A stretch of DNA of 64,000 bases, taken from positions 1,272,001 through 1,336,000 of the forward strand of contig JAGYIY010000001.1 in the NCBI GenBank assembly GCA_018402485.1, read 5' to 3'. Position 1 is the first letter of the stretch. Each line of letters begins with the position of its first letter. Origin of the DNA: Roseivirga sp. (GTDB taxonomy: Bacteria; Bacteroidota; Bacteroidia; Cytophagales; Cyclobacteriaceae). The notes under the pieces were generated by a model. The model ran no database searches, had not been told where the DNA came from, and saw only the letters and a program-made list of their open reading frames with translations. The position numbers were made by a program, and so were the translations under genes. This document shows positions 21,546 through 35,531 of the stretch, piece after piece.

Positions 21546-24500
21546 ATGAAGAGAATTTTACTGACATGTGTTTCGTTAGCGTTGGTGTTTTTATCAACAG
21601 CTGCGATGGCACAGAACAGGACAGTCTCAGGAAAGGTAACCAGTGCCGAAGATGGCCTGCCATTGCCTAATGTAACTGTTTTGTTAAAAGGGACTACCCA
21701 GGGTACTCCTACTAATGTGGATGGCGAATTCACCTTAAGTGTTCCTAATTCTGGTGCAACTTTGGTGTTCCGTTTCCTAGGTTTTGTCACCCAAGAAGTT
21801 GAGGTAACAGAGCGTTCTGTTTACAATATTGCAATGCAGACTGACGCAACCTCGTTGGGAGATGTAATTGTAACAGGGGTGGCTACGGGTACGCCTGAGA
21901 AAAAGCTGGCTTTCTCTATTGCTAAAGTAGACGAAGAATTGATTCAGCAAGTACCTCAGTCTAACGCTGGTGGAGCCCTTCGTGGTAAAGTAGCAGGTGT
22001 AAAAGTAAGACAAAGTGGTGCGCCACTTTCTAACCCTACTTTTCAAATTCGTGGTGCAGCTCAGTTGAGAACTTCTAATGCTCCTTTGATTGTTGTAGAT
22101 GGTATTTTGATTGAAGGTGCATTAAGTGATATCAACATGCAAGATGTTGAAAACATCGAAGTATTGAAAGGTGCTTCTGGTGCATCTTTGTATGGATCTC
22201 GTGCAGCAAATGGTGTAATTGCCATTACCACAAGAAGAGGTGACAAATTAGATCAAGGTACAACCAATGTGAAGTTCAGAAATGAAGTTGGTTTTGAGAC
22301 GCTTTACAATTCTAGAGCACCTCAAAAAACCAATTCTCATCACTTTGCGACAAACGCTGACGGGTCAATTCAAACGAATCCTGATCCACTAGGTTTTCAA
22401 TTGGGTATTGATGATGCACGTCAGATTCAGGATCAACCCTTCCCTAATGGTACAGTAGATCACCTAGACCAAGGTTTCCAAGGAAATACCTTTTGGACTT
22501 CTTATCTACAAATTACTTCAAACTATGCATCAGGAAACGTAGCTGCATCTTTTGAAAATACTCTTTCTGGAGGAGTTGTTCCATTAAATGGTGGTGCAAA
22601 CCGTCAAAATCTTCGCGTGAACGTAGATCAAAACTTATCTGATCGATTGAAATTATCCGTATCTTCTCTATGGGCACGAAGATTCCGCGACCAAAACTTA
22701 AATGGTGGTTTAGGAACTCGTGGAGCTTTAAGGAATCTTTTCATGATGGATCCTTCAGCTGACTTGTTCGAGAAAAACGTAGATGGTTCTAACTATCGTT
22801 GGAATGTGAATAAGTTTGGTAATTCTGAATCTAACCCACTTTATACGTTAGATAGATTAACCAATGAGTTTGAATCGAATCGTTTCTTAGGAAATGTAAG
22901 ATTGAACTATGAGTTAGCCGAGGGCTTAAATCTAGAATATGCAGCGTCTATCGATAGATCTAATACGGAGAGTTTTGCTTTCTTACCAAAGGGTCACTTA
23001 GATTTGTCAGCAGGAGATGGTCCAACGCTAGGAAATAGATCGGATAGCTTTGGTTCACAAACGGCCATAATTTCAACAGCAACAGTTTCTTATGCCACTT
23101 CTTTCGGAGATTGGAATGTAAGGTCTAGGGCTTTTTATCAGTATGAGAACAACGAGTTCGAAAGCTGGGGATTATCTGCACGTGAGCAGCAAGCATCTGG
23201 TGTTACCAGTTTCAACAACTTTGCAATTACTAACCCTTTGTCTTCTAGTCAAGGTGAAATAACTGCAAGTAACTTTGCTGCCGCCATTGGTGGTGATTAC
23301 CAAGATAAGTACATTGCTGATATGGTAATCCGCTATGAAGGTGTGTCTTTGTTTGGTGCTGAAGAGCGTTGGCAAACCTTCTTTAGAGGTTCATTTAACT
23401 ACAGAATCTCCGAAGATGTTGAAATCCCGGGTTTTCAAGAATTATCCATTAGAGGTTCTTATGGTACTTCTGGTAACCGTCCTGGTTTCTCAGATCAGTT
23501 TGAGGCCTTTGGTGTTAGCGCTGGAAACATTTCAGCTAACGGTACCTTGGGTAACCCGAACCTAAAAAATGCGATTACTACAGAATGGGAAGTTTCATTG
23601 AGAGCTGACTTTTTAGATCGCTTCAGCATGTTAGCTTCTTACTCTGATCAAGTGAACGCAGACCAAATCTTGGTTGTACCAGTTTCTGGTGCTGCTACGG
23701 GTGGGTTTTCTTCTCAAATCGCAAATGCAGGTACTGTAGAAAGTAGCTCTTTTGAGGTTACTTTGGATTACGAAGCCATTAGAACTGAAAAAATGGGTCT
23801 TACTTTTGGATTGGTATTCGATCGCTACAGAGGAGAGATTACTGAATTCGACAGAAGAGATCAAGTAGTTGGTTTGAACATTTGGAGAGTTGGCGCACAG
23901 ATCGGTGACATTTATGGAGAGGATTTTGCAAGAACTTTAGACCAATTGTCAGTTGATGGTAATGGTTTTGTTTTGAATGATCCTTTTGCTGGAGATAGAA
24001 CAATTGATGAATATAGCATTAACTCTGACGGGTTTGTAGTTCACACCGCTTCTATTGGTACTAACCAAGAATCTGTGTTAAGACTAACCGATGATAATGG
24101 TGTTGTGCAAAACGACCTTTTATTAGGTAATGCTACTCCTGACTTTAACTTAGGTTTAAATACGAACTTCCGTTTAGGTGGCCTAAACATTTACATGTTA
24201 TGGACATACCAAAGTGGTGGTTTAGTATACAACCAGTCTAGACAGTGGATGCACAGAGATTTGATCGATGCTAGATTTGATCAAGCAGGAAAAGCTGATG
24301 GTGATAAAAAGACAACAGCTTACTATACAAGTATTTATAATGTTAACAGGTCAAACTCTTGGTTCTTGGAAGATGCAACGAACCTAAGATTAGCTGAGTT
24401 AGCTGTAAATTATAACTTTAATAAGAGTGTGTTAGATCGTATGGGATTAGGCAATGTATTCAAAGCAGCTAAGATTTCTTTTATCGGAAGAAACTTACTA

Positions 24501-24617
24501 GTAGCTTCGGATTACACAGGTTTCGATCCTGAGGTAGGTAACTTACAGCGTCCGGTAGACGACTTTGCTTATCCTTTGGTAAGAACGTTCACAGGAGCTA
24601 TCGACCTCACTTTCTAA
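21546..24617 (+). CDS. SusC/RagA family TonB-dependent transporter
   Basis: A 1023-residue outer-membrane transporter that forms a lidded complex with the SusD-like lipoprotein encoded next. A signal peptide ends near residue 23 (AMAQN). A CarboxypepD_reg-like domain (24-105; DGLPLPNVTVLLKGTTQGT, DGEFTLSVPNSG) precedes the plug, which holds QVPQSNAGGALRGKVAGVKV and the SusC signature VLKGASGASLYGSRAANGVI. The barrel runs to FTGAIDLTF with a terminal Phe. There is no nearby glycoside hydrolase, sulfatase or peptidase, so the substrate (glycan, peptide or other oligomer) is open. The pair is separated by 31 nt and co-transcribed. Confidence 0.95.
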   Translation: MKRILLTCVSLALVFLSTAAMAQNRTVSGKVTSAEDGLPLPNVTVLLKGTTQGTPTNVDGEFTLSVPNSGATLVFRFLGFVTQEVEVTERSVYNIAMQTDATSLGDVIVTGVATGTPEKKLAFSIAKVDEELIQQVPQSNAGGALRGKVAGVKVRQSGAPLSNPTFQIRGAAQLRTSNAPLIVVDGILIEGALSDINMQDVENIEVLKGASGASLYGSRAANGVIAITTRRGDKLDQGTTNVKFRNEVGFETLYNSRAPQKTNSHHFATNADGSIQTNPDPLGFQLGIDDARQIQDQPFPNGTVDHLDQGFQGNTFWTSYLQITSNYASGNVAASFENTLSGGVVPLNGGANRQNLRVNVDQNLSDRLKLSVSSLWARRFRDQNLNGGLGTRGALRNLFMMDPSADLFEKNVDGSNYRWNVNKFGNSESNPLYTLDRLTNEFESNRFLGNVRLNYELAEGLNLEYAASIDRSNTESFAFLPKGHLDLSAGDGPTLGNRSDSFGSQTAIISTATVSYATSFGDWNVRSRAFYQYENNEFESWGLSAREQQASGVTSFNNFAITNPLSSSQGEITASNFAAAIGGDYQDKYIADMVIRYEGVSLFGAEERWQTFFRGSFNYRISEDVEIPGFQELSIRGSYGTSGNRPGFSDQFEAFGVSAGNISANGTLGNPNLKNAITTEWEVSLRADFLDRFSMLASYSDQVNADQILVVPVSGAATGGFSSQIANAGTVESSSFEVTLDYEAIRTEKMGLTFGLVFDRYRGEITEFDRRDQVVGLNIWRVGAQIGDIYGEDFARTLDQLSVDGNGFVLNDPFAGDRTIDEYSINSDGFVVHTASIGTNQESVLRLTDDNGVVQNDLLLGNATPDFNLGLNTNFRLGGLNIYMLWTYQSGGLVYNQSRQWMHRDLIDARFDQAGKADGDKKTTAYYTSIYNVNRSNSWFLEDATNLRLAELAVNYNFNKSVLDRMGLGNVFKAAKISFIGRNLLVASDYTGFDPEVGNLQRPVDDFAYPLVRTFTGAIDLTF

Positions 24618-24648: not shown

Positions 24649-26136
24649 ATGAAAAACTATAAACTATTAATCATCGCTTTAGCCTTCATAGCTGTAGGGA
24701 TGGGGTGTCAAGATCTCGAAGTAGAGAACTTGAACTCTCCTGATAGAAGAGCTTTGCTTGCAGAACCTTCGGAGTATCCTGCGAGTATAGAAGGTGCGTA
24801 CTCCTCAGTGTGGGGTGCAACGCAGTACAGTACCTTCCAGTTTCCAATCTCTGTCATGGCGCAAAGTTTGTCCATGTCTTGGGGTAACTGGGGTGCACAA
24901 GATTTGGGTACCATACCTCGTCAAGCTTTACAAAATAACTTGACTTACAATAACCGTGGTGTTTTTACAGGATCTTGGAATGGTATGTATTCAGCTCTAG
25001 GACCTGTCAATAACATTCTTAAAATCATTGCTGAAGATGGCGTAACAGTGCCCGACGGTGCTGGTAACGACATCACTCAGAGTGTTGTTGCGAATGGTAA
25101 ATTTGTACAGGGAATGGCATTGGGATATTTGTCTTTGATTTATAATCAGGCCTATATCGTAGATGAAGCTTCAGACATTAGCAACCTTGAATTCAGACCT
25201 TACAGTGAAGTAAATGCTGCTGCTGTTCAAAAATTGGAAGAAGCGGCTGCCTTATTTGCAGGTTCTAATTGGTCTATGACTGGTTTTCCAGAATATAATT
25301 TTGTTGGCAACGACGCTGCAAAAGTTGCTCGTTCATTTGCTGCAAAATTTCAAGCTGTTGTGGCCAGAAATACTACTGAAGCTGCTGCTATAGATTGGGC
25401 TAATGTTCTTTCGAATGCATCTAATGGCATGGACTTTGACTTGGCACCTCTGGGTGACGGTGGTAATGTCTGGTGGCATCGTTTGTTGATCCAAGGACAA
25501 GATCCGGGATGGGCTCGTGTTTCTCAAAAAATGATCAAAATGATGAACCCTGATGCTAGTAATGCTGCGGTTCCTTATCCATGGCCTGATGGTGTGGGAA
25601 CAATTGGTGCAATTGCTAACCCTGGCGATGACCGTATCGGTACTGATATTACTTTTGCTGGTGCTTCTCCTTTTTCCTCTGCTAGAGGTTGGTATTTCTA
25701 CAGTGATTATGATTACAGTAGATATGAATCTTACAGAGCTTCATTTGCCGAACCAATGGATTATTTAACAGAAGCGGAGGTAGGTTTAATCAGAGCAGAA
25801 GCGCTTATTAGAACTGGCGGAAGCAAAACTGATGCAGCTAATTTAATCAACGTAACTCGTGTTGCACGTGGTGGTCTAGCACCATTGACTGGAGCAGAGT
25901 CCGATGATGTATTATTGAATGCAATCACTTACGAGTTGTTAGTAGAGACTTCTCATCACATGGGTGGTAACCCTTGGTTCCAGAGACGTATGAGAACTCC
26001 ATCTGGAAACACAGATGCGACAAATCTATACTATCTAGAGCCTGCTACAGCAAGACATTTACCAGTTCCTGCAGATGAGCTATCTATATTTGGTATTCCT
26101 TTCTATACTTTTGGAGGTAACCAACCAGAGCAATAG
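24649..26136 (+). CDS. SusD/RagB family nutrient-binding outer membrane lipoprotein
   Basis: A 495-residue surface lipoprotein that acts as the ligand-capturing lid on the SusC-like transporter. Lipobox VGMGC gives Cys20, followed by acidic residues (CQDLEVENLN) as in surface-exported lipoproteins. The N-terminal helices carry TPR-like features of SusD folds (SWNGMYSALGPVNNILKII; FVQGMALGYLSLIYNQAYIVDE), and the C-terminus has YLTEAEVGLIRAEALIRTGG and the terminal ATARHLPVPADELS, which is the usual RPIPxxE-type ending of SusD proteins. A terminator follows. Confidence 0.93.
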   Translation: MKNYKLLIIALAFIAVGMGCQDLEVENLNSPDRRALLAEPSEYPASIEGAYSSVWGATQYSTFQFPISVMAQSLSMSWGNWGAQDLGTIPRQALQNNLTYNNRGVFTGSWNGMYSALGPVNNILKIIAEDGVTVPDGAGNDITQSVVANGKFVQGMALGYLSLIYNQAYIVDEASDISNLEFRPYSEVNAAAVQKLEEAAALFAGSNWSMTGFPEYNFVGNDAAKVARSFAAKFQAVVARNTTEAAAIDWANVLSNASNGMDFDLAPLGDGGNVWWHRLLIQGQDPGWARVSQKMIKMMNPDASNAAVPYPWPDGVGTIGAIANPGDDRIGTDITFAGASPFSSARGWYFYSDYDYSRYESYRASFAEPMDYLTEAEVGLIRAEALIRTGGSKTDAANLINVTRVARGGLAPLTGAESDDVLLNAITYELLVETSHHMGGNPWFQRRMRTPSGNTDATNLYYLEPATARHLPVPADELSIFGIPFYTFGGNQPEQ

Positions 26137-26187: not shown

Positions 26188-26266
26188 TGCCAATTTATTT
26201 CTAGTTTCTAAAAATATTGTTAGATTAACATTCTGATTGTCATATAAATGTTATCAAAGTACACAA

Positions 26267-29200
26267 ATGGGGGTTCATTTTAGTAGTATATATTCCCTAT
26301 TTAGCATCAACAGACTTGTTGGTTTGCTGTTTTTAATGGCATTTTTGTGTTCGTGCACTAATAAGGACAATGACCTTTTTTCTAGGGCTGATGGCTCATC
26401 TAGTGGGTTCCTTTTTGAGAATAATATCTTTGAATCAGATACTTTAAATGCATTTGAGCATTTGTATATCTATAATGGTAGCGGTGTTGGCATTGGAGAC
26501 TTAAATAATGATGGTTTGATGGATGTCGTTATGGCGGCGAATATGAATTCGAGCTCAATATTTATAAACAAAGGAAATTTTCAATTTGATAAAACACCAG
26601 ATGATGCTGGGTTTAATGCGAAAGGTTGGGTGCATGGTGTAACTTTGGTTGATATCAATTTAGACGGCTGGTTGGATATTTATTTAAGTATTGGAGGTAA
26701 GCAAATAGGCGAATCTTCTCGAAACCAACTCTTTATGAATCAAGGCGATATGACTTTTATTGAATCGGCTTCTGAGTATGGTCTTGATAGTAAATATTTG
26801 ACTTCTCATACCGTCTTCTTTGACATCGACAAGGATGGGGATTTAGATGCATATATGATCAATTATGAAAATAACCCAACCAAAGACCCCAATTTAGTAG
26901 TAGCTAAAAAAGCATCTGGTAGTACACTAAGTAATGACCGTTTGTTTATCAATCAGGATAATTATTATCTAGATCAATCAAAACAGGCTGGCGTGTTACA
27001 TGAGGGCTATGGATTGGGTATTGCAGTGCATGATTTCAATAACGATCACTGGCTTGATCTTTACATCAGCAACGATTTTGCATACGACGATTTGCTTTAT
27101 ATTAATAATAAGGATGGCACTTTTACCGAATCTTTGCAAGAATATGTAAAACACACCAGTAATTTTGGAATGGGCCTAGATGTAGGTGACATCAACAATG
27201 ATGGATTTGCTGATATTTTTCAGCTAGATATGTTACCTCAAGACAATCGTCGACAGAAGAAATTGCTCAGCGGTTTAAACTACGATAGGCAGCGTCTATT
27301 ATTAGACCGAGGGTATACCTCTCAATACATGCGCAATAGCCTTCAATTAAATGATGGAAAGGGAAGGTATAAAGAAATTGGCTATTTAGCCGGGGTCCAT
27401 GCTACGGATTGGTCATGGACACCTTTAATGGCAGATATGGATAATGATGGTCTATTGGATATTTATGTGACCAACGGTTATGTAAAAGATGTGACCGACA
27501 TTGATTTTAGAGATTATATAGTAAATGAAAGTCGTAATTCGAATCAACCTTTTGACCCAAAGCTGGTGGTAACAGCCCTGCAAGACTTAAAGGGAGAAAA
27601 AGTAAGTAATTACGCTTTTAAAAATAAGGGGAATTATCAGTTTGAAAACTATGCCCGAGATTGGGGCCTTTCCCGACCTTCATTCTCAACAGGCGCAGCT
27701 TACAGTGATTTAGATAATGATGGAGATCTAGACTTTATTGTAAATAATTTGAACGAGCCCTCATTTTTATTTAAAAATCATCTGGAAGAAATTGACAGTG
27801 TAAATTATTTAATGGTGAATGTAACTGTTCAAAATAACCATGCATTAGCCATTGGAAGTAAGGTAGAGGTTTACCTTCCAACCGTTAAAATGATCCGTTT
27901 TGTAAATCCTTACAGAGGTTTTCAATCTTCTGTAGATCCACGTTTGCATTTTGGCTTGGCTAGTAATCAAACCATTGATTCTTTGGTGGTTACTTGGCCA
28001 GACGGCACCAAAGAACGCTTATTAAATATAGAAGCCAATCAGCATTTAACATTTAACAAGAACAACCTTATTTCCGTGGAACAAAGCCCAATTGAAGATT
28101 CCATTTTCCTATGGGAAGATTTTTCTGATCAGCTTACTTTTGAATATTTACATGAAGAATCTGACTTTGTAGACTTTAAAAGGGAAGCATTGCTACCCCA
28201 TCAGCTGTCTCAAGAAGGGCCTATAGCCGCTGCTGCAGATATTAACGGCGATGGTTTAACCGATCTTTTTATAGGGGGTGCTGCCAATAAGAATGCCAGT
28301 ATTTGGATGCAATCTTGGTCAAATAGTGGCTCTTCTTGGAGTCAATCCACCTTTCCATGGCATAGAGAATCAGAGGATACTGATGCATTCTTTTATGATT
28401 TTGATGGAGATGGAGATTTGGACTTATATGTGGTTAGTGGTAGTAACGAATTTGATCCGGATCATGAAACCTATCAGGATAGATTATATGCCAATGATGG
28501 TAAGGGCAATTTTAGTCCACTCGAAGGGGTGTTACCAAAGGCTCATTTAAGTGGAGGGGTAATTGCAGCGCATGACATTACAGGAAATGGAGAGTTAGAA
28601 CTCTTTATTGGAGGTCGTTTGAACCCAGGAAACTATCCTTTACCTGGCACTAGTCAGTTACTAGTAAAAGAAGATGGGGTTTATAAAGATAGAATAGATG
28701 AATGGATGCCCGGTTTGAAAAATATAGGAATGGTCAAAGCGGCTCAGTGGGCTGACTTGAATAACGATGGGCAAGTCGAGTTGATCGTGACGGGTGAATT
28801 TATGAGTATTCACATTTACGAAAAGCAAGGTGAGATTTGGAAGGATGAATCTGAAAGGTTTGGTACAGCTGGATACGAAGGTTGGTGGAATACAATTGAG
28901 GTAAAAGACCTAAATCAAGATGGATATTTGGAAATTATTGTAGGTAACCTTGGCTTGAACAGCCGCTACAAAGCTAGTGAAACGTATCCATTGCGAATTT
29001 ATGCATCAGATTATGATGCCAACGGATCAATTGATGCAGTCATGTCATACGCCAATGCTCAAGGTGAATTTATCATTCATGATAAAACAACGCTATCCCA
29101 ACAAATCAATGCAATTAGAAAAAAATTCCCAAAGAATATAAATTATGCAGAATCAAGCTTGAAAGACGTTATTCCCCAAAGCGAATTAGAAGAATCGTAC

Positions 29201-29614
29201 AGGCTTGAAGCTGTCAATTTTTCTAGTGGTACGTTTTTGAACCAGTCCGGACGTTTTAATTTTATACCTTTTCCAATAGAGGCTCAGTTTTCACCAATTA
29301 ATGAACTGATGATCGATGATATCAATGAAGACGGTTTTCCAGATATTTTAACAGGTGGAAATTCTTTTGCTCCTGAGGTATTTAACGGACGTTACGATGC
29401 ACAAGCCTCATTACTAATGCTAGGAAAAGGAAACGGACACTTTATTCCTATCACACAAAAAACCCTTTCACCCCTATTGAAAGATGGTGTAATTCGTCAA
29501 TTTTTAAAATTGAACATACAAAATCAACCTTATTTAATGGTGCTGAAAAACAATGCCGAGGGTGCGATATTGAAGCGAAATCAATCTTTACAATTCAACG
29601 CTGCTAATTATTGA
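26267..29614 (+). CDS. FG-GAP/VCBS-repeat and ASPIC_UnbV (CRTAC1-like) lipoprotein
   Basis: A 1115-residue exported protein with a long n-region signal and lipobox FLCSC (Cys30). About thirteen repeats of the calcium-binding type D-x-(N/D)-x-D-G-x-x-D are visible, for example DLNNDGLMD, DIDKDGDLD, DINNDGFAD, DLDNDGDLD, DINGDGLTD, DFDGDGDLD and DINEDGFPD. These should form two seven-bladed FG-GAP propellers around a central ASPIC_UnbV segment (about 560-620; PYRGFQSSVDPRLHFGLA). Such proteins commonly follow SusCD pairs in Bacteroidota and may be accessory surface binders. Start: a TTG at 26237 would be in frame, but the ATG at 26267 gives a better signal peptide. Confidence 0.88.
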   Translation: MGVHFSSIYSLFSINRLVGLLFLMAFLCSCTNKDNDLFSRADGSSSGFLFENNIFESDTLNAFEHLYIYNGSGVGIGDLNNDGLMDVVMAANMNSSSIFINKGNFQFDKTPDDAGFNAKGWVHGVTLVDINLDGWLDIYLSIGGKQIGESSRNQLFMNQGDMTFIESASEYGLDSKYLTSHTVFFDIDKDGDLDAYMINYENNPTKDPNLVVAKKASGSTLSNDRLFINQDNYYLDQSKQAGVLHEGYGLGIAVHDFNNDHWLDLYISNDFAYDDLLYINNKDGTFTESLQEYVKHTSNFGMGLDVGDINNDGFADIFQLDMLPQDNRRQKKLLSGLNYDRQRLLLDRGYTSQYMRNSLQLNDGKGRYKEIGYLAGVHATDWSWTPLMADMDNDGLLDIYVTNGYVKDVTDIDFRDYIVNESRNSNQPFDPKLVVTALQDLKGEKVSNYAFKNKGNYQFENYARDWGLSRPSFSTGAAYSDLDNDGDLDFIVNNLNEPSFLFKNHLEEIDSVNYLMVNVTVQNNHALAIGSKVEVYLPTVKMIRFVNPYRGFQSSVDPRLHFGLASNQTIDSLVVTWPDGTKERLLNIEANQHLTFNKNNLISVEQSPIEDSIFLWEDFSDQLTFEYLHEESDFVDFKREALLPHQLSQEGPIAAAADINGDGLTDLFIGGAANKNASIWMQSWSNSGSSWSQSTFPWHRESEDTDAFFYDFDGDGDLDLYVVSGSNEFDPDHETYQDRLYANDGKGNFSPLEGVLPKAHLSGGVIAAHDITGNGELELFIGGRLNPGNYPLPGTSQLLVKEDGVYKDRIDEWMPGLKNIGMVKAAQWADLNNDGQVELIVTGEFMSIHIYEKQGEIWKDESERFGTAGYEGWWNTIEVKDLNQDGYLEIIVGNLGLNSRYKASETYPLRIYASDYDANGSIDAVMSYANAQGEFIIHDKTTLSQQINAIRKKFPKNINYAESSLKDVIPQSELEESYRLEAVNFSSGTFLNQSGRFNFIPFPIEAQFSPINELMIDDINEDGFPDILTGGNSFAPEVFNGRYDAQASLLMLGKGNGHFIPITQKTLSPLLKDGVIRQFLKLNIQNQPYLMVLKNNAEGAILKRNQSLQFNAANY

Positions 29615-29681: not shown

Positions 29682-30653
29682 ATGGGTATGATTGTTGTTA
29701 CAGGAGCAGTGGGGTTTATTGGGAGCTGTTTAATCGGTAAATTGAATGCTGAGGGCTTCAATAATATTGTAGCTGTTGACGCTTTTGATACACCACTAAA
29801 AAACCTTAATCTTAACAATAAAAACGTTTTAGAAAAGGTAGAAAGAGGTATGTTTTTTGAATGGCTAGATCAAAAGAAAGATAAAGTTGAATTCATTTTT
29901 CACCTCGGAGCACGTACCGATACGGCTGAATTTGATACAAACCTACTTAGTACATTGAATACAGAATATTCTAAAATGATCTGGCAAAAATGTATTGATT
30001 ATCAAATACCATTGGTTTATGCATCTTCGGCTGCGACATACGGGGATGGAAGTCTTGGCTATAAAGATGACCATCAAATTATTCCTGAGTTGAAACCGCT
30101 AAATCCGTACGGTGTTTCTAAAAATGAGTTTGATAAGTGGGTCTTACTTCAAAAAGAAAGACCATTTTTTTGGGCAGGACTTAAGTTTTTTAACGTTTAT
30201 GGTCCCAATGAATATCATAAAGGGAGGATGGGGTCAGTAGTGTGGCATGCCTTCCGTTCAATTATGGATCACCAAGAAATGAGGCTGTTTCGTTCTCATC
30301 ACCCGGATTATAAAGATGGCGAACAAAGGCGAGATTTTGTTTATGTCAAAGATGTAGTAAATGTACTTTACTTTCTAATGCATCATCGCAAGAATTCTGC
30401 CATATATAATTTGGGAAGTGGCGAGGCAAGAACATTTTTAGATTTGGTGAGGACTACCTTCGATGCCCTAAATATGAAGGAAAATATTTCTTTTATGGAC
30501 ACCCCTGAAGACATAAGAGATAATTACCAATACTTCACCCAGGCAGAGATGAAAAAAATAAAAGATATTGGCTACAATAAGCCTTTTACCTCCTTGGAAG
30601 ATGGAGTGTCTGATTACGTGATTAATTATTTGTTGAACACTAAAAGAATTTAA
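29682..30653 (+). CDS. hldD: ADP-L-glycero-D-manno-heptose 6-epimerase-like protein (SDR family)
   Basis: A 323-residue extended short-chain dehydrogenase. The NAD(P)-binding loop is TGAVGFIGSCL (residues 8-18). HLGARTDT, the catalytic Ser/Tyr region YASSAATYGDG and LNPYGVSKNEFD (YxxxK), and the HldD-typical FFNVYGPNEYHKGRMGSVVWH follow. It should invert C6 of ADP-heptose for LPS inner-core synthesis. ATG at 29688 (MIVVTGA) is an alternative start. It heads a compact operon of envelope genes; no other heptose gene (hldE, waaC) is in the window. Confidence 0.9.
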   Translation: MGMIVVTGAVGFIGSCLIGKLNAEGFNNIVAVDAFDTPLKNLNLNNKNVLEKVERGMFFEWLDQKKDKVEFIFHLGARTDTAEFDTNLLSTLNTEYSKMIWQKCIDYQIPLVYASSAATYGDGSLGYKDDHQIIPELKPLNPYGVSKNEFDKWVLLQKERPFFWAGLKFFNVYGPNEYHKGRMGSVVWHAFRSIMDHQEMRLFRSHHPDYKDGEQRRDFVYVKDVVNVLYFLMHHRKNSAIYNLGSGEARTFLDLVRTTFDALNMKENISFMDTPEDIRDNYQYFTQAEMKKIKDIGYNKPFTSLEDGVSDYVINYLLNTKRI

Positions 30654-30655
30654 AA

Positions 30656-31096
30656 ATGAGATGGATAGTATGTGTTGCTTTTGCTTTATGTATGATGAGT
30701 GCCCAAGCACAAAAGATAGAAGCCAAAGATAATGTAAATGATAGTACAGTGTATTATTTCGCTACCTTAAAGTTAAACTCAGGCTTATATGTAGTGACTC
30801 CCATTGATACCTTAAAAGCAAAGGCAGATCAAGTGAAAAATAAATTAATCGAAATCAATGAGCTGAATAAGCCTAGGTTACTGAAATATTCGATGCAGGA
30901 GTTGGGCGATAAAGACTTGACAGCAGAAATAGGATCAAATGTAAATATTCTTGAGATTCAGCCTACAGTTCCTCTGCTACGGTCGGAACTTGATAAGTTT
31001 ATTAGTATGAATGATGGGAAAGTATACAATTTACTCAGGTTTAAGTTTGCAAAACCTAGGGTAAGAGAACGAATAAATGTAAGAAAGTATGACTAG
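30656..31096 (+). CDS. secreted protein of unknown function in the hldD operon
   Basis: A 146-residue protein with a signal peptide cleaved near residue 19 (MMSAQAQ). The mature part is small, charged and mixed alpha/beta (VYYFATLKLNSGLYVVTPID; DKFISMNDGKVYNLLRFKF), with no Cys and no recognisable motif. It starts 2 nt after the hldD stop and overlaps the next gene by 8 nt, so it is part of the same translation-coupled run. I do not recognise a family. Confidence 0.65.
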   Translation: MRWIVCVAFALCMMSAQAQKIEAKDNVNDSTVYYFATLKLNSGLYVVTPIDTLKAKADQVKNKLIEINELNKPRLLKYSMQELGDKDLTAEIGSNVNILEIQPTVPLLRSELDKFISMNDGKVYNLLRFKFAKPRVRERINVRKYD

Positions 31097-31628
31097 ATAT
31101 ATGAAGTTTATTGTAATGGCAACTGTGGTTTTGTTCATTCATTCGTGTAATGAAAGAGCAAAGTATGTTAAATCCCAAAAGATAGAAATAGAATATTGGG
31201 GAGAAGTTGAGGAAGGTGATTGGATTGAAGTCGATGGCTTAAGGTTATATCATATTACGAATGACACATCGGGAGGATGTGAACCAGACTATGAATATAA
31301 TTATCTGGCGCTTAATTCAGATCCTGATGCAGAGCAATTTTATCTACCTTCTACAAAGTATAAAGTGTGCCTGATTGATGACACATGGACAGATAAGAAG
31401 TTAACAAGCGGTGACCTTGCTTTTAATTTGATCTCTGCATTGAACGAATTTGCTGAGCAGGATGAGATATCCTTACAATTACCCTATAAGAATACAAGTT
31501 CTATTTATTATACCACAATGGGTAAACTGCATCTAGAGCGCACAGATGGAAAGGCAATAAAGGTAAGTACCAGTGAGAATTATAAAGGTACTGTACGCAT
31601 AATGCAACCCTCTGACGCTGAAGAATGA
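31089..31628 (+). CDS. lipoprotein of unknown function in the hldD operon
   Basis: A 179-residue protein with a lipobox, FIHSC (Cys20), and a basic start. The mature domain is acidic with alternating beta patterns (EIEYWGEVEEGDWIEVDGLRLYHIT) and two further Cys (SGGCEPDY and YKVCLID) that could form a disulfide. It overlaps the preceding gene by 8 nt and the following SGNH hydrolase gene by 4 nt (ATGA). An inner ATG at 31101 (MKFIVMATV) is a plausible start that would keep the signal peptide. No family is recognised. Confidence 0.65.
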   Translation: MTRYMKFIVMATVVLFIHSCNERAKYVKSQKIEIEYWGEVEEGDWIEVDGLRLYHITNDTSGGCEPDYEYNYLALNSDPDAEQFYLPSTKYKVCLIDDTWTDKKLTSGDLAFNLISALNEFAEQDEISLQLPYKNTSSIYYTTMGKLHLERTDGKAIKVSTSENYKGTVRIMQPSDAEE

Positions 31629-33493
31629 GTTCTGTAAAAAAACGGCTGTTTTACGTTGTTACGCTCTTAATTCCATTTGCTTTTTTTGCAATCTTGGAGC
31701 TGATTCTCCTTGCAATCAATTTTGGTGAAACACCTCCTTTATTTATTGATGATGTAAGTTCTTCCAAACATCGTGTGATGAATCCTATTGTTTCAGAGCG
31801 TTATTTTCCCACCAAGGATTATAGTACCAAAGGCCAATACGATGTTTTCTTGAAAGAAAAAACAAATAATACATTTAGAGTTTTTGTACAAGGTGCATCT
31901 TCCTCAGCTGGCTTCCCTTATTTACATAGTGGCTCCTTCCCACGACTATTAGAGCAAAAGCTTCAACACTATTACCCTAACCATCATATTGAAGTAATTA
32001 ATACGAGCTTAGCAGCTACTAATAGTTATACCTTGTTAGATTTCGTTGATGAAATTCTAGCAGAACAGCCAGACCTGGTACTCATATATAGTGGTCATAA
32101 TGAGTATTATGGTGCTTTGGGGGTTGGTTCTTCGCAACGTTTTGCAGGTTCTGTTGGCCTTACTAATCTTTATTTGAAATTAAAAAATGTCCGTACTGTA
32201 CAACTATTGAAAAACTTATTGCAATGGATTTACTCAGAGAATGAAAAACAGTCAAGCCAAACATTGATGTCTAAAATGGTACGCGATGAAAGCATACCTT
32301 TTGGTTCTTCTGCCTATCATCAAGGTTTGGATCAATATTCTACCAATATAGGAACCTTATTGAGTAAGTATCAGGAAGCACGTGTTCCCGTAATGATATC
32401 CAATCTTGTGAGTAATCTTAGGGATTTTGAGCCCTTTATTACGGGTGAGGATACAGAGTTTGACGCATCATTGGCTTTTGAACAAGCTAAAAAGTTTTAT
32501 GAGAAGGAAGATTTTGAAAATGCTCTGGTTGCTTTTAAAAAAGCCAGAGACTATGATCTGTTAAAGTTCAGAGCCCCTACAGATTTGGTGAATAGGATTC
32601 CTCAACTAGCTGAAAAATACGGTGCTCGCTGGATAGATATGAGGACGGCATTTGAAAAAAAGAGTGAAAATGGGATCATAGGAAACGATTTACTTTTAGA
32701 ACACGTGCATGCTAATTTAACAGGAGTACGGCTTTTTGCAGACGTTTTTTTTGAGGAAGTTGCAAGCTTTTTAAAAGAGAAAAATATTAAAATAGACTCC
32801 TCTCAGTCTTTTACCTACCGCATAGCAGAGGTTGATAGCCTTTATGGTAGCACCTCAATTCAACAGTTAATGAGTAATTGGCCTTTTACAGATAAGGTTC
32901 AAAACCAAATTAGCCCTCCAAGAAATGAAATAGAAAAGCTAATTGCCGGCGATTTCTTGTGGGTTGCTGTAATGTCTAATGCTTTTGCAAGACAAATTGA
33001 AACCAGACCTGAAAAAGCCTTAACAACAGCTCTCGTAATGGTTCAGGAATACCCGCATACAGCACAACCCTATTTGATGGCTGGTGAAGCTTACTATAAA
33101 ATGAAAGCATATGATGAAACAGTGGATTTTTTATCTCAAATGCCAAAAGAATTTCAATCGCAAAGCAGCTTTCAATTACAGCTAAATGCTCGATTGTCAC
33201 AAGGAAATTATCTTAGTGCTTTACCCATTGCAAAATCGTTATTTGCTTTGGAGAAGTCCATTGAAAACCAATATTTAGTAGCTGCATTGACCGATATTAC
33301 TTCCATTCGATTGGCAGTAATAGAACCGAAACAAGTTCTGTCTAATCCTGATGCTTACATCAGAGCTTTAGGAGCCTTGGCTTACCTGAAGCGGACTGAT
33401 GATGTTGCTAACCTTCATAGAAAATTGAAGCAGATTATTCCAACGAATAGTGCTTTGAATCAATTGCAAGAAACCTTAAAATTAAAACGATGA
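31625..33493 (+). CDS. membrane-anchored SGNH/GDSL hydrolase with TPR repeats (first paralogue)
   Basis: A 622-residue protein with one N-terminal membrane anchor (about 7-32). The SGNH core is read as FVQGASSSAGFP (nucleophile Ser92), IYSGHNEYYG (Asn159; GxND-like block III) and LEHVHAN (catalytic His362). The usual DxxH acid is Glu359 here. A single TPR-like hairpin (about 283-315; KKFYEKEDFENALVAFKKARDYD) is inserted inside the catalytic domain, and further TPR-like helices fill 430-610. The family includes O-acyl esterases and acyltransferase partners acting on envelope glycans; the substrate is unknown. It is 4-nt overlapped with genes on both sides. Confidence 0.82.
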   Translation: MSSVKKRLFYVVTLLIPFAFFAILELILLAINFGETPPLFIDDVSSSKHRVMNPIVSERYFPTKDYSTKGQYDVFLKEKTNNTFRVFVQGASSSAGFPYLHSGSFPRLLEQKLQHYYPNHHIEVINTSLAATNSYTLLDFVDEILAEQPDLVLIYSGHNEYYGALGVGSSQRFAGSVGLTNLYLKLKNVRTVQLLKNLLQWIYSENEKQSSQTLMSKMVRDESIPFGSSAYHQGLDQYSTNIGTLLSKYQEARVPVMISNLVSNLRDFEPFITGEDTEFDASLAFEQAKKFYEKEDFENALVAFKKARDYDLLKFRAPTDLVNRIPQLAEKYGARWIDMRTAFEKKSENGIIGNDLLLEHVHANLTGVRLFADVFFEEVASFLKEKNIKIDSSQSFTYRIAEVDSLYGSTSIQQLMSNWPFTDKVQNQISPPRNEIEKLIAGDFLWVAVMSNAFARQIETRPEKALTTALVMVQEYPHTAQPYLMAGEAYYKMKAYDETVDFLSQMPKEFQSQSSFQLQLNARLSQGNYLSALPIAKSLFALEKSIENQYLVAALTDITSIRLAVIEPKQVLSNPDAYIRALGALAYLKRTDDVANLHRKLKQIIPTNSALNQLQETLKLKR

Positions 33494-33639
33494 ATTCTTT
33501 GAAAGAGCTTTTTCAATTTATGTCGGAGCGCAAGCGTTTATGGTTAGCTCCAATTATTATTATCTTATTGCTTTTAGGATTACTCATTGTTTTTGTCGAG
33601 GGTTCTGCCCTTGCCCCTTTCATATACAGTGTATTTTAA
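33490..33639 (+). CDS. DUF5989 family small membrane protein (49 aa)
   Basis: A 49-residue protein: short amphipathic start (MNSLKELFQFMSERKRLWL), one membrane helix (APIIIILLLLGLLIVFVEG), and the conserved tail GSALAPFIYSVF. This pattern is the DUF5989 family, found in many Bacteroidota and other bacteria next to SGNH hydrolases, SxtJ-type membrane proteins and carbamoyltransferases. Its ATG overlaps the stop of the first SGNH gene (ATGA), and the second SGNH gene starts 26 nt later. It is small enough to be missed by automatic calling. It may be a small scaffold subunit; that is inference. Confidence 0.8.
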   Translation: MNSLKELFQFMSERKRLWLAPIIIILLLLGLLIVFVEGSALAPFIYSVF

Positions 33640-33665
33640 ATGATAAACTAGCACAGATGTGATTT

Positions 33666-35531
33666 ATGGTCAAAGGCAGGAAAAAACGTTTCTTTTATCT
33701 CATTACTTTACTTGTACCCTTCTTTTTTCTTGGGTTGTTTGAACTGAGCCTGCGTTTTTTTCAAGTGGGAGAGAATGCTCCTCCTTTGTTTATTACCAAC
33801 CCGATGAATCGTTCTCAGTTCATTATGAACCCGGCAGTTGCTGAACGTTATTTTCCTAATAAGGATTTTGTAACGGTGGGGGCTTATGACCCATTTAAGA
33901 AAATAAAAACGGAAAAGACCATTAGAATTTTTGTGCAAGGGGCTTCTTCCTCGGCTGGTTTTCCTTTTCGTGCAGCTTCTTTCCCCAGGTTATTGGAACA
34001 GAAATTGCAATATTATTACCCGAATTACTCGATTGAGGTAGTGAATACAAGTTTAGTGGCCACCAATAGCTATACCATACGCGATATGGTGCCTGAAATA
34101 CTGGAACAACAGCCTGATATGGTAATTATTTATAGCGGACATAATGAATATTATGGTGCTTTGGGTGTGGGGTCGAGTCAATCTTTAGGGCGCTATCCAA
34201 TGGTGACTAATTTTTATCTCCGATTAAAAAACCTGAGGATTGTTCAACTATTGAAAAAGGTGATTACCCGCTCTTATGGAGTTTCCACTAACAGGAACGG
34301 CGAAACATTAATGTCTCAAATGGTTCAAGAGGAGCAAATTCCCCATGGTTCTAAAATTGCAATGCTAGGAGTTGAGCAGTACCAAGCAAATTTAAAAAAG
34401 ACATTATCTGACTATCAGACAAAAGGTGTGCCGGTATTGATCTCAACCCTTGTCAGTAATGTCAAAGATTTTTCTCCCTTTGCAAGCAGTGATAATGCCT
34501 ATAGTGCAACGCACGCTTTTAATGAAGGTAAAAAATTACTACTTGCAAAAGATACAGTTTTAGCCAAGCAATCCTTTGAAAAAGCTAGAGATTATGATCT
34601 GATAAAATTCAGGGCAACAAGCCAGATTGAAGCAACCATTCCCAAATTAGCAGAAGCTTATCAAGCGCATCTTCTTGATATGAAAGGCGCTTTTGAATCA
34701 CGTAACTCAATCGTCGGCAATGAATTGTTGTTGGAGCACGTACATGCTAATTTGGAGGGACAAAAATTATGGGCAGAAACAGCGTTTGAAAAGGTGAGTT
34801 GGCTTTTGTTAAAGGAAAGAAATATAGTACAGCAAGATGTAGAGGCTCCTTTTTCTTTTGCCATTGCAGAAACGGATAGCACATATGCGTATCAGTTAGT
34901 TGAGGAAATGATGCAAAAATGGCCCTTTGTTCCTGTAGGACAAGAAGTCCAAATGCAACCCAACCCCATATTAAAACAAATTGTAAGTGGGCAAATTTCC
35001 TTCGACCAATTGTTGTTGAATTCTTATTATACTCAAATGAGCCAGAAGTCAAGTGAGGCCTGGAAAACGGCTCATGTTTTGTGGCAGGAATATGAAAATC
35101 CCGATTATCTTTTATTGGAAATTGATGCTTTACTAATGCTAGAAAATTATGAAAGAGCTGCATTCATGCTGAACAGATTCCCTGAAAACAAACAAGATTA
35201 TCGCTACTTGGAGGCGAAGCTTAAACTGGCTCTAGCCAAAAAGGAGTATCAAAAAGCGCTTGGGTTTGCCAATCAATTTCTAAGTGAAAAATATGATTTT
35301 GATGTGCAAAAGGTTTTTGAATCGTTGGAGTATATCTTAACTCATCCAGCATTATCGGTACAAGATAAAAGCGAAGAAATAAAACAAGCTCCCAATGAAT
35401 ATATCGCCTTGTTGGAAGCCTATATTTTCTTAAAAGAACAGGATCTTGTGAATCAAATAAAACCTAAGGTTTTAAAGTATCTATCGAACCACCCCGCATT
35501 AATTCGATTAAAAAAACAAGGTTTGCTATAG
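33666..35531 (+). CDS. membrane-anchored SGNH/GDSL hydrolase with TPR repeats (second paralogue)
   Basis: A 621-residue paralogue of the protein at 31625-33493, similar along its whole length. Anchor at about 9-33; nucleophile Ser94 in VQGASSSAGFP; Asn160 in IYSGHNEYYG; His in LEHVHAN near 361-364, again with Glu in the acid position. It has the same inserted TPR-like hairpin (GKKLLLAKDTVLAKQSFEKARDYD) and a more divergent C-terminal helical region. The catalytic half is much better conserved between the two than the C-terminal half, suggesting the same chemistry with different partners. It ends the hldD operon. Confidence 0.82.
   Translation: MVKGRKKRFFYLITLLVPFFFLGLFELSLRFFQVGENAPPLFITNPMNRSQFIMNPAVAERYFPNKDFVTVGAYDPFKKIKTEKTIRIFVQGASSSAGFPFRAASFPRLLEQKLQYYYPNYSIEVVNTSLVATNSYTIRDMVPEILEQQPDMVIIYSGHNEYYGALGVGSSQSLGRYPMVTNFYLRLKNLRIVQLLKKVITRSYGVSTNRNGETLMSQMVQEEQIPHGSKIAMLGVEQYQANLKKTLSDYQTKGVPVLISTLVSNVKDFSPFASSDNAYSATHAFNEGKKLLLAKDTVLAKQSFEKARDYDLIKFRATSQIEATIPKLAEAYQAHLLDMKGAFESRNSIVGNELLLEHVHANLEGQKLWAETAFEKVSWLLLKERNIVQQDVEAPFSFAIAETDSTYAYQLVEEMMQKWPFVPVGQEVQMQPNPILKQIVSGQISFDQLLLNSYYTQMSQKSSEAWKTAHVLWQEYENPDYLLLEIDALLMLENYERAAFMLNRFPENKQDYRYLEAKLKLALAKKEYQKALGFANQFLSEKYDFDVQKVFESLEYILTHPALSVQDKSEEIKQAPNEYIALLEAYIFLKEQDLVNQIKPKVLKYLSNHPALIRLKKQGLL

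Follow-up and report, generated by a model that had tools for sequence, protein, structure and literature searches.

DUF5989 between two SGNH proteins in Roseivirga: a candidate half of a carbamoyl-transfer system whose parts are split over two loci

Background

The 64,000-nucleotide stretch of Roseivirga sp. DNA analysed here as a whole (the window; positions 1,272,001 to 1,336,000 of contig JAGYIY010000001.1) carries a compact operon in which two paralogous SGNH proteins, SGNH1 and SGNH2, flank DUF5989, a small membrane protein (Table 1). An earlier note on this DNA had stated that DUF5989 usually comes with SxtJ and a carbamoyltransferase (CarbT), that both are missing here and that the second SGNH protein replaces them. 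The locus thus raises the question of what a DUF5989 placed between two SGNH proteins could do with neither CarbT nor SxtJ at its side. To our knowledge, no role has been assigned to DUF5989, SxtJ or the long SGNH family, and we know of no established mode of carbamoyl addition outside the cytoplasm. With a probability of roughly 0.55, we propose that the window encodes the extracytoplasmic half of a system of four parts for carbamoyl transfer, in which DUF5989 would be a DltX-like shuttle and SxtJ and CarbT would stand in for an MBOAT protein.

Location of CarbT and SxtJ

The genome of the window was searched with the CarbT of a relative. A single member of the CarbT clade was recovered, on contig C10, 51% identical to the query and directly followed by an SxtJ (PF19588, 33.2 bits for a cut-off of 24.4). 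Both O-carbamoyltransferase domains of this CarbT, PF02543 and PF16861, scored over their cut-offs (326.7 and 244.3 bits, respectively), and its nearest solved relatives are NovN, GdmN and TobZ. The genome thus counts one DUF5989, in the window, and one CarbT of the clade and one SxtJ, both on C10. Neither DUF5989 nor a long SGNH gene was found at the C10 locus, where CarbT and SxtJ leave no space between them.

Comparison with relatives suggests how this distribution arose. In two genomes of the same genus (G001 and G013) the gene order is SusC-SusD-FG-GAP-hldD-P3-P4-SGNH-DUF5989-CarbT-SxtJ, and a third (G016) has the same genes in a rearranged order; from this gene content, the window is that module with SGNH2 standing where CarbT-SxtJ would be. 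The C10 locus is syntenic with another genome, G003, in which the order is CarbT-SGNH-DUF5989-SxtJ. Downstream of the pair seven further genes follow in the same order, with one additional gene among them in G003, and a biotin-carboxylase-like gene (identified by eye) adjoins CarbT in the window's genome and lies 4.3 kb upstream in G003. The SxtJ proteins of these two loci are 57% identical and their CarbTs 67%, as against 48-49% between the C10 CarbT and the CarbTs of the hldD operon; the CarbT-SxtJ pair of the operon therefore looks lost, not moved. The two four-part loci of this genome have shed complementary parts, and only the two taken together hold the complete set.

The earlier note was thus right about the locus and not about the organism, and since CarbT and SxtJ both sit at C10, SGNH2 need not replace them. 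SGNH2 does occupy their place next to DUF5989, as would be expected of a new O-acyl module that does not involve carbamoyl, but a CarbT and an SxtJ exist at C10 with neither SGNH nor DUF5989 beside them, and DUF5989 is found with CarbT in nearly every family genome that has it (see below). The substitution was rejected once the pair had been located, and we consider such a module improbable. The least probable of the readings weighed here is that of a decaying remnant left after the loss of CarbT and SxtJ: both loci do lack parts found in relatives, but their losses are complementary, all frames are open, the catalytic residues of both SGNH proteins are intact and the window DUF5989 is 82-84% identical to two homologues of the genus.

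More distant CarbT paralogues of the same genome, on contigs C13 and C1, were left out of the counts. The C13 paralogue is a single frame and the C1 paralogue is broken into pieces; identical sugar-epimerase scores on C13 and on C1:448000-478000 point to C13 being almost a duplicate of a section of C1.

The C-terminal tail of DUF5989

The window DUF5989 matches PF19451 over positions 1-49 of 49 (84.1 bits for a cut-off of 27) and ends in the hexapeptide FIYSVF, of the form FXYXXF. Among the 58 DUF5989 proteins of the scanned loci, 54 are distinct; all 54 have a Tyr at position -4 and conform to [FL]xYxx[FW], and 48 end strictly in FXYXXF. As a background, 1856 other open reading frames of at least 40 residues, called but not proven genes, were examined: two end in FXYXXF, one being a DUF5989 missed by our filter and the other a Pfam MBOAT. 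A search of the PDB with DUF5989 returned no match.

FXYXXF is described in PMC12148441 as the acyl-shuttle hexapeptide of DltX and bacterial MBOATs, whose acylated Tyr feeds an SGNH partner. The DltX of B. thuringiensis has 48 residues, ends in TFIYNEF with its Tyr at -4 and is predicted to have its N-terminus inside and its C-terminus outside (11 residues inside, 22 in the membrane and 15 outside), according to PMC5541007. DUF5989 proteins carry a mean of 4.5 Lys and Arg residues over their first 20 positions, none between positions 21 and 36, and 0.04 over the final 13. Taken with the positive-inside rule, this distribution predicts an outside C-terminus, as for DltX, so that the FXYXXF tail, placed by charge distribution only, would be extracytoplasmic as in the Dlt and Pat systems.

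Such tails are also carried by MBOAT proteins themselves. The MBOAT met in the background set belongs to the window's own genome, is encoded on contig C13 (L171:12881-14314) and ends in DFIYFQF, the acyl-shuttle motif. A true MBOAT elsewhere in the genome, such as this one, might be imagined to load DUF5989 and the SGNH pair; its possession of a tail motif of its own means that it should not need DUF5989, and DUF5989 tracks CarbT and SxtJ. We regard this partnership as very doubtful.

The two SGNH proteins

SGNH1 and SGNH2 are 43-44% identical and each has an N-terminal hydrophobic segment, which bears out the description of a paralogous, membrane-anchored pair in the earlier note. They score 26.9 and 25.2 bits against Lipase_GDSL_2 (PF13472), below the cut-off of 32.9, which a relative at locus L061 exceeds (50.5 bits). 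The catalytic residues Ser92, Asn159 and His362 are kept in all 37 aligned proteins, both window copies included, with Asp or Glu at position 359 (Glu359xxHis362 in SGNH1). An anchored SGNH protein with catalytic Ser, Asn and His is also what the acyl-Tyr shuttle systems Dlt and Pat possess. The C-terminal part of SGNH1 gives a weak TPR-like match, and the 60 matches listed, of 418, in a PDB search with the SGNH alignment are mostly TPR-type repeat proteins matched in the C-terminal part, which tells nothing about the SGNH part.

A tree of 36 SGNH proteins grouped SGNH1, SGNH2 and the single-copy SGNH proteins of the genus in one clade (support 100/99), and SGNH2 is therefore best read as a duplication within the lineage, its placement inside the clade being weakly supported (83/57). 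In the same tree the gammaproteobacterial SGNH pairs come from a distinct and older duplication, each half being supported at 99/95; a Melioribacteraceae pair falls elsewhere. A long SGNH was found in 20 of the 390 genomes of the family; the loci of the 19 others showed no case of two complete genes, the SGNH of L184 and L189 reaching a contig end. The exact gene order of the window is hence confined to this strain among the family loci examined, although SGNH-DUF5989-SGNH recurs in the Melioribacteraceae locus L049, with DUF5989 on the minus strand.

Co-occurrence in the family

DUF5989 was present in 77, CarbT in 79 and SxtJ in 76 of the 390 genomes, and all three were present in 75 of the 80 genomes having any of them. 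The association with SxtJ and carbamoyltransferase stated in the earlier note thus holds, and SGNH often joins it. DUF5989 was accompanied by CarbT in 76 of 77 genomes (Fisher p ~3e-76, relatedness ignored). CarbT was counted from a threshold of 590 bits, below which the best-scoring genome reached 544.6; the search matched 115 genomes, from which the 36 with a best score of at most 544.6 were left out as paralogues, and G020 was counted (596 bits) although its CarbT is split. Among the five exceptions, three genomes have their matches near a contig end (G061, G192 and G141), G067 has an SGNH-CarbT fusion and G250 is unexplained.

Weak DUF5989 matches inside larger proteins of six genomes (G061, G112, G117, G136, G140 and G380) were considered as MBOAT tails and rejected as chance matches. 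By eye, among the matches listed, these proteins are mostly O-antigen-ligase-like membrane proteins, with one CPBP-like and others different. The weak matches of these six genomes, together with secondary weak matches in G079, G083 and G234, were removed before counting.

Separation of the parts was observed in other members of the family. In 4 of the 75 genomes CarbT and SxtJ are together and DUF5989 is elsewhere (G000, which is the window's own genome, G034, G077 and G111), and in 3 others (G032, G170 and G319) DUF5989 keeps SxtJ at its side, with CarbT on a different contig. Contig breaks may lie behind several of these separations, the DUF5989 contig of G077 being only 3.3 kb long. In G111, SGNH-DUF5989, with DUF5989 directly after SGNH, and CarbT-SxtJ are about 1.8 Mb apart on one 2.15-Mb contig. 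G013 has a second SGNH-DUF5989 pair (L038:6243-7406) with no adjoining CarbT or SxtJ, in a genome with one CarbT and one SxtJ in total. Such split loci suggest that the parts are shareable in trans and that two SGNH enzymes may draw on a single shuttle.

Occurrence in other phyla

Genome contigs were scanned with the SGNH alignment, and 80 of 93 confirmed loci were kept, 42 strong and 38 weak. Within the stretch examined, the strong loci contained CarbT in 21 cases, SxtJ in 21 and DUF5989 in 23, and the weak loci contained CarbT in only 4 of 38. At least two long-SGNH pieces were present in 8 of the 42 strong loci; those of L082 are frames of one broken gene and those of L071 frames of two. 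Psychrosphaera and Arsukibacterium have SGNH pairs divergent from CarbT-SxtJ-DUF5989 (L066, L071, L076 and L081), and further pairs were found in Neomarinimicrobiota (L086) and, as two copies apart, in an Ignavibacteria genome (L078). The Melioribacteraceae genome G412 shows the same split as the window: its CarbT-SxtJ is on another contig, with no DUF5989 in the 19.5 kb examined.

More generally, 21 genomes had no CarbT near their SGNH, and 18 of them had one elsewhere. These 21 correspond to 19 of the 21 strong loci without nearby CarbT (L052 and L062 were left out) and to the weak loci L090 and L101; CarbT was found elsewhere for 16 of the 19 strong loci (for L059, a fragment at a contig start) and for both weak ones (for L090, in two pieces). 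Several of the SGNH stretches end at contig ends, so that elsewhere does not always mean a proven distance.

SGNH and CarbT were also found as a single polypeptide in two phyla, in the Bacteroidota genome G067 (L221:6384-9572, 1063 residues) and in the KSB1 genome G425 (L244:376-3672). Their SGNH parts contain no strongly hydrophobic stretch, the best 19-residue means being 1.2 and 1.5, as against 2.7 and 2.1 for the SGNH anchors of the window. Neither DUF5989 nor SxtJ was found beside the fusions, in the 14 kb (G067) and 19 kb (G425) examined, or among the whole-genome matches of G067. A fusion would put both enzymes on one side of the membrane, where no shuttle is needed, which fits the absence of DUF5989 and SxtJ.

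Proposed mechanism and alternatives

Carbamoyl transfer could proceed in four steps. The CarbT of C10, an O-carbamoyltransferase of the TobZ/NovN/GdmN type, would activate carbamoyl phosphate in the cytoplasm. Together with SxtJ, a small membrane protein, it would load the carbamoyl group on the invariant Tyr of the DUF5989 tail. DUF5989, with one transmembrane segment and its C-terminus outside, would then transfer the carbamoyl to the catalytic Ser in an anchored SGNH protein, as DltX does to DltD. Finally, SGNH1 and SGNH2, two acceptor enzymes on one shuttle, would put it on an envelope glycan. The alginate AlgI system likewise has two SGNH proteins, AlgJ and AlgX. Heptose as the acceptor is a reasonable guess only, made because HldD is in the operon and core heptose is carbamoylated in Pseudomonas. 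The envelope-glycan O-acylation suggested in the earlier note would thus survive in spirit, with the group now read as carbamoyl.

If this mechanism is right, the acyl-Tyr shuttle is not bound to MBOAT proteins, and the joint travel of the DUF5989, SxtJ, CarbT and SGNH genes across phyla is explained. The single Tyr fixed at -4 from the C-terminus offers a direct test point. We hold only tentatively, at somewhat under even odds, the broader proposition that DUF5989 carries carbamoyl and that DUF5989, SxtJ, CarbT and SGNH form an MBOAT-free transmembrane O-carbamoylation machine with the acyl-Tyr logic of DltX, present in several phyla and with parts acting from separate loci.

Several observations weigh against the shuttle mechanism. 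The window cluster, operon included, encodes no MBOAT, CarbT, on the cytoplasmic side, would have to reach a Tyr outside, and SxtJ, inspected by eye, has no evident catalytic residue. Pfam DltX (PF12459) was not among the families listed for 24 DUF5989 members at E values up to 10, and an hhalign comparison of DUF5989 with one DltX gave a probability of 10% and an E value of 0.003 over 9 N-terminal residues only; a search of the window's own genome with PF12459 also gave no match. Because sequence homology does not appear in these comparisons, the likeness to DltX means that DUF5989 works like it, not that it is one, and the common tail might have arisen by convergence or serve a different purpose. 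In G034 the parts divide differently: the SGNH adjoins SxtJ-CarbT and none was seen beside DUF5989. In addition to its fusion, G425 has a CarbT-SxtJ-DUF5989 locus of the ordinary kind (L237), so that only G067 tests the absence of a shuttle genome-wide. In three of the 21 genomes above no CarbT was found, and the sole reference rate, 79 of 390, comes from the window's family and not from those phyla. The assembly (0.17% contaminated) is 84.6% complete, and a further CarbT or DUF5989 may be absent from it.

Finally, NovN, GdmN and TobZ modify small molecules in the cytoplasm. Were the C10 CarbT to do likewise, it would carbamoylate at the cytoplasmic face, DUF5989 and SxtJ would do no more than anchor or regulate the enzyme, and the SGNH proteins would act as esterases removing or editing groups on the exported glycan. 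This reading is unlikely in our view, yet it deserves serious consideration: Pseudomonas WapO alone is held to carbamoylate core heptose (PMC8005017), and the gene adjoining sxtI-J-K is listed as decarbamoylation in the gene list of PMC2679770. It leaves unaccounted for the invariant Tyr of the FXYXXF tail at a predicted outside C-terminus, and it would make a futile pair of the CarbT-SGNH fusions of G067 and G425.

Comparison with known systems

The proposed shuttle system resembles Dlt (DltA-C-B-X-D), as portrayed in PMC12148441 and PMC5541007, in its microprotein of about 50 residues with one transmembrane segment, in the C-terminal FXYXXF Tyr, in the same predicted orientation and in the SGNH partner; in Dlt, too, the activated group is loaded from the cytoplasm, as would be the case here. 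Unlike Dlt, neither an MBOAT DltB nor a carrier DltC was seen in the operon, the donor side would consist of an O-carbamoyltransferase and SxtJ, and the hosts are Gram-negative. The PatA/PatB system of peptidoglycan O-acetylation shares the FIYxxF tail (NgPatA ends in FIYANF) and the SGNH partner, but there the MBOAT itself bears the motif and the transferred group is acetyl from acetyl-CoA (PMC12148441). WapO, a putative carbamoyltransferase of the core heptose of Pseudomonas lipopolysaccharide, offers a similar link between an envelope carbamoyltransferase and heptose; the passages of PMC8005017 that treat it make no mention of a DUF5989, SxtJ or SGNH partner.

A cyanobacterial toxin cluster contains an sxtI-sxtJ-sxtK-sxtL block, in which we take sxtK for a DUF5989 member and sxtL for a GDSL protein; it differs from the window system in giving a small-molecule product. 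Its likeness is drawn from the published gene list in PMC2679770, which gives sxtI as carbamoylation, sxtJ and sxtK (165 bp) as unknowns and sxtL as decarbamoylation. In the literature searched, mostly without subscription papers and with no bioRxiv preprints, so that prior notice is possible, we found neither DUF5989 nor the SxtJ family and no paper joining carbamoyl, SGNH and MBOAT; FXYXXF appeared only in PMC12148441.

Organisation of the gene cluster

The six genes from hldD to SGNH2, with their coordinates, agree with the earlier note, as do their spacings: the first two genes are separated by 2 nt, the next three junctions overlap by 8, 4 and 4 nt, and 26 nt separate the last two genes. 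Its limits proved too narrow upstream: the SusC, SusD-like and FG-GAP genes are clustered with the operon in the three relatives, and the module thus starts at SusC, not at hldD. Promoter and terminator counts were not above those of shuffled sequences. The hldD-like epimerase passes its equivalog cut-off and is the sole above-cut-off match in the genome.

Table 1. Features of the gene cluster in the window
Feature	Coordinates	Strand	Remarks
SusC-like TonB-dependent receptor	21546..24617	+	Pfam Plug/CarboxypepD_reg; also in L030, L031, L032
SusD-like protein	24649..26136	+	Weak SusD_RagB match, below cut-off
FG-GAP/UnbV_ASPIC repeat protein	26237..29614	+	Pfam FG-GAP_3 8.6e-70, UnbV_ASPIC 4e-22
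HldD, ADP-glyceromanno-heptose 6-epimerase	29682..30653	+	TIGR02197 361.6 bits, equivalog cut-off 274.6
P3, 146 aa	30656..31096	+	No family; secreted by its N-terminus (by eye)
P4, putative lipoprotein, 179 aa	31089..31628	+	No above-cut-off family; signal-like N-terminus, Cys20 (by eye)
SGNH1, 622 aa	31625..33493	+	N-terminal hydrophobic anchor, SGNH domain; proposed transferase
DUF5989, 49-aa microprotein with a single transmembrane segment	33490..33639	+	PF19451; proposed DltX-like shuttle
FIYSVF hexapeptide of DUF5989	33619..33636	+	Tyr46 codon at 33625-33627
SGNH2, 621 aa	33666..35531	+	SGNH1 paralogue, catalytic residues intact

The P3 gene is present in all three relatives of the same genus that have a long SGNH, and P4 in the same three and in G094, there beside SusCD and CarbT. 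The FG-GAP/UnbV_ASPIC protein also accompanies the module in all three. Of 17 family loci (L173-L189), 13 include a SusC-like gene in the stretch around their long SGNH, which hints at a role in outer-membrane import or docking connected with this system.

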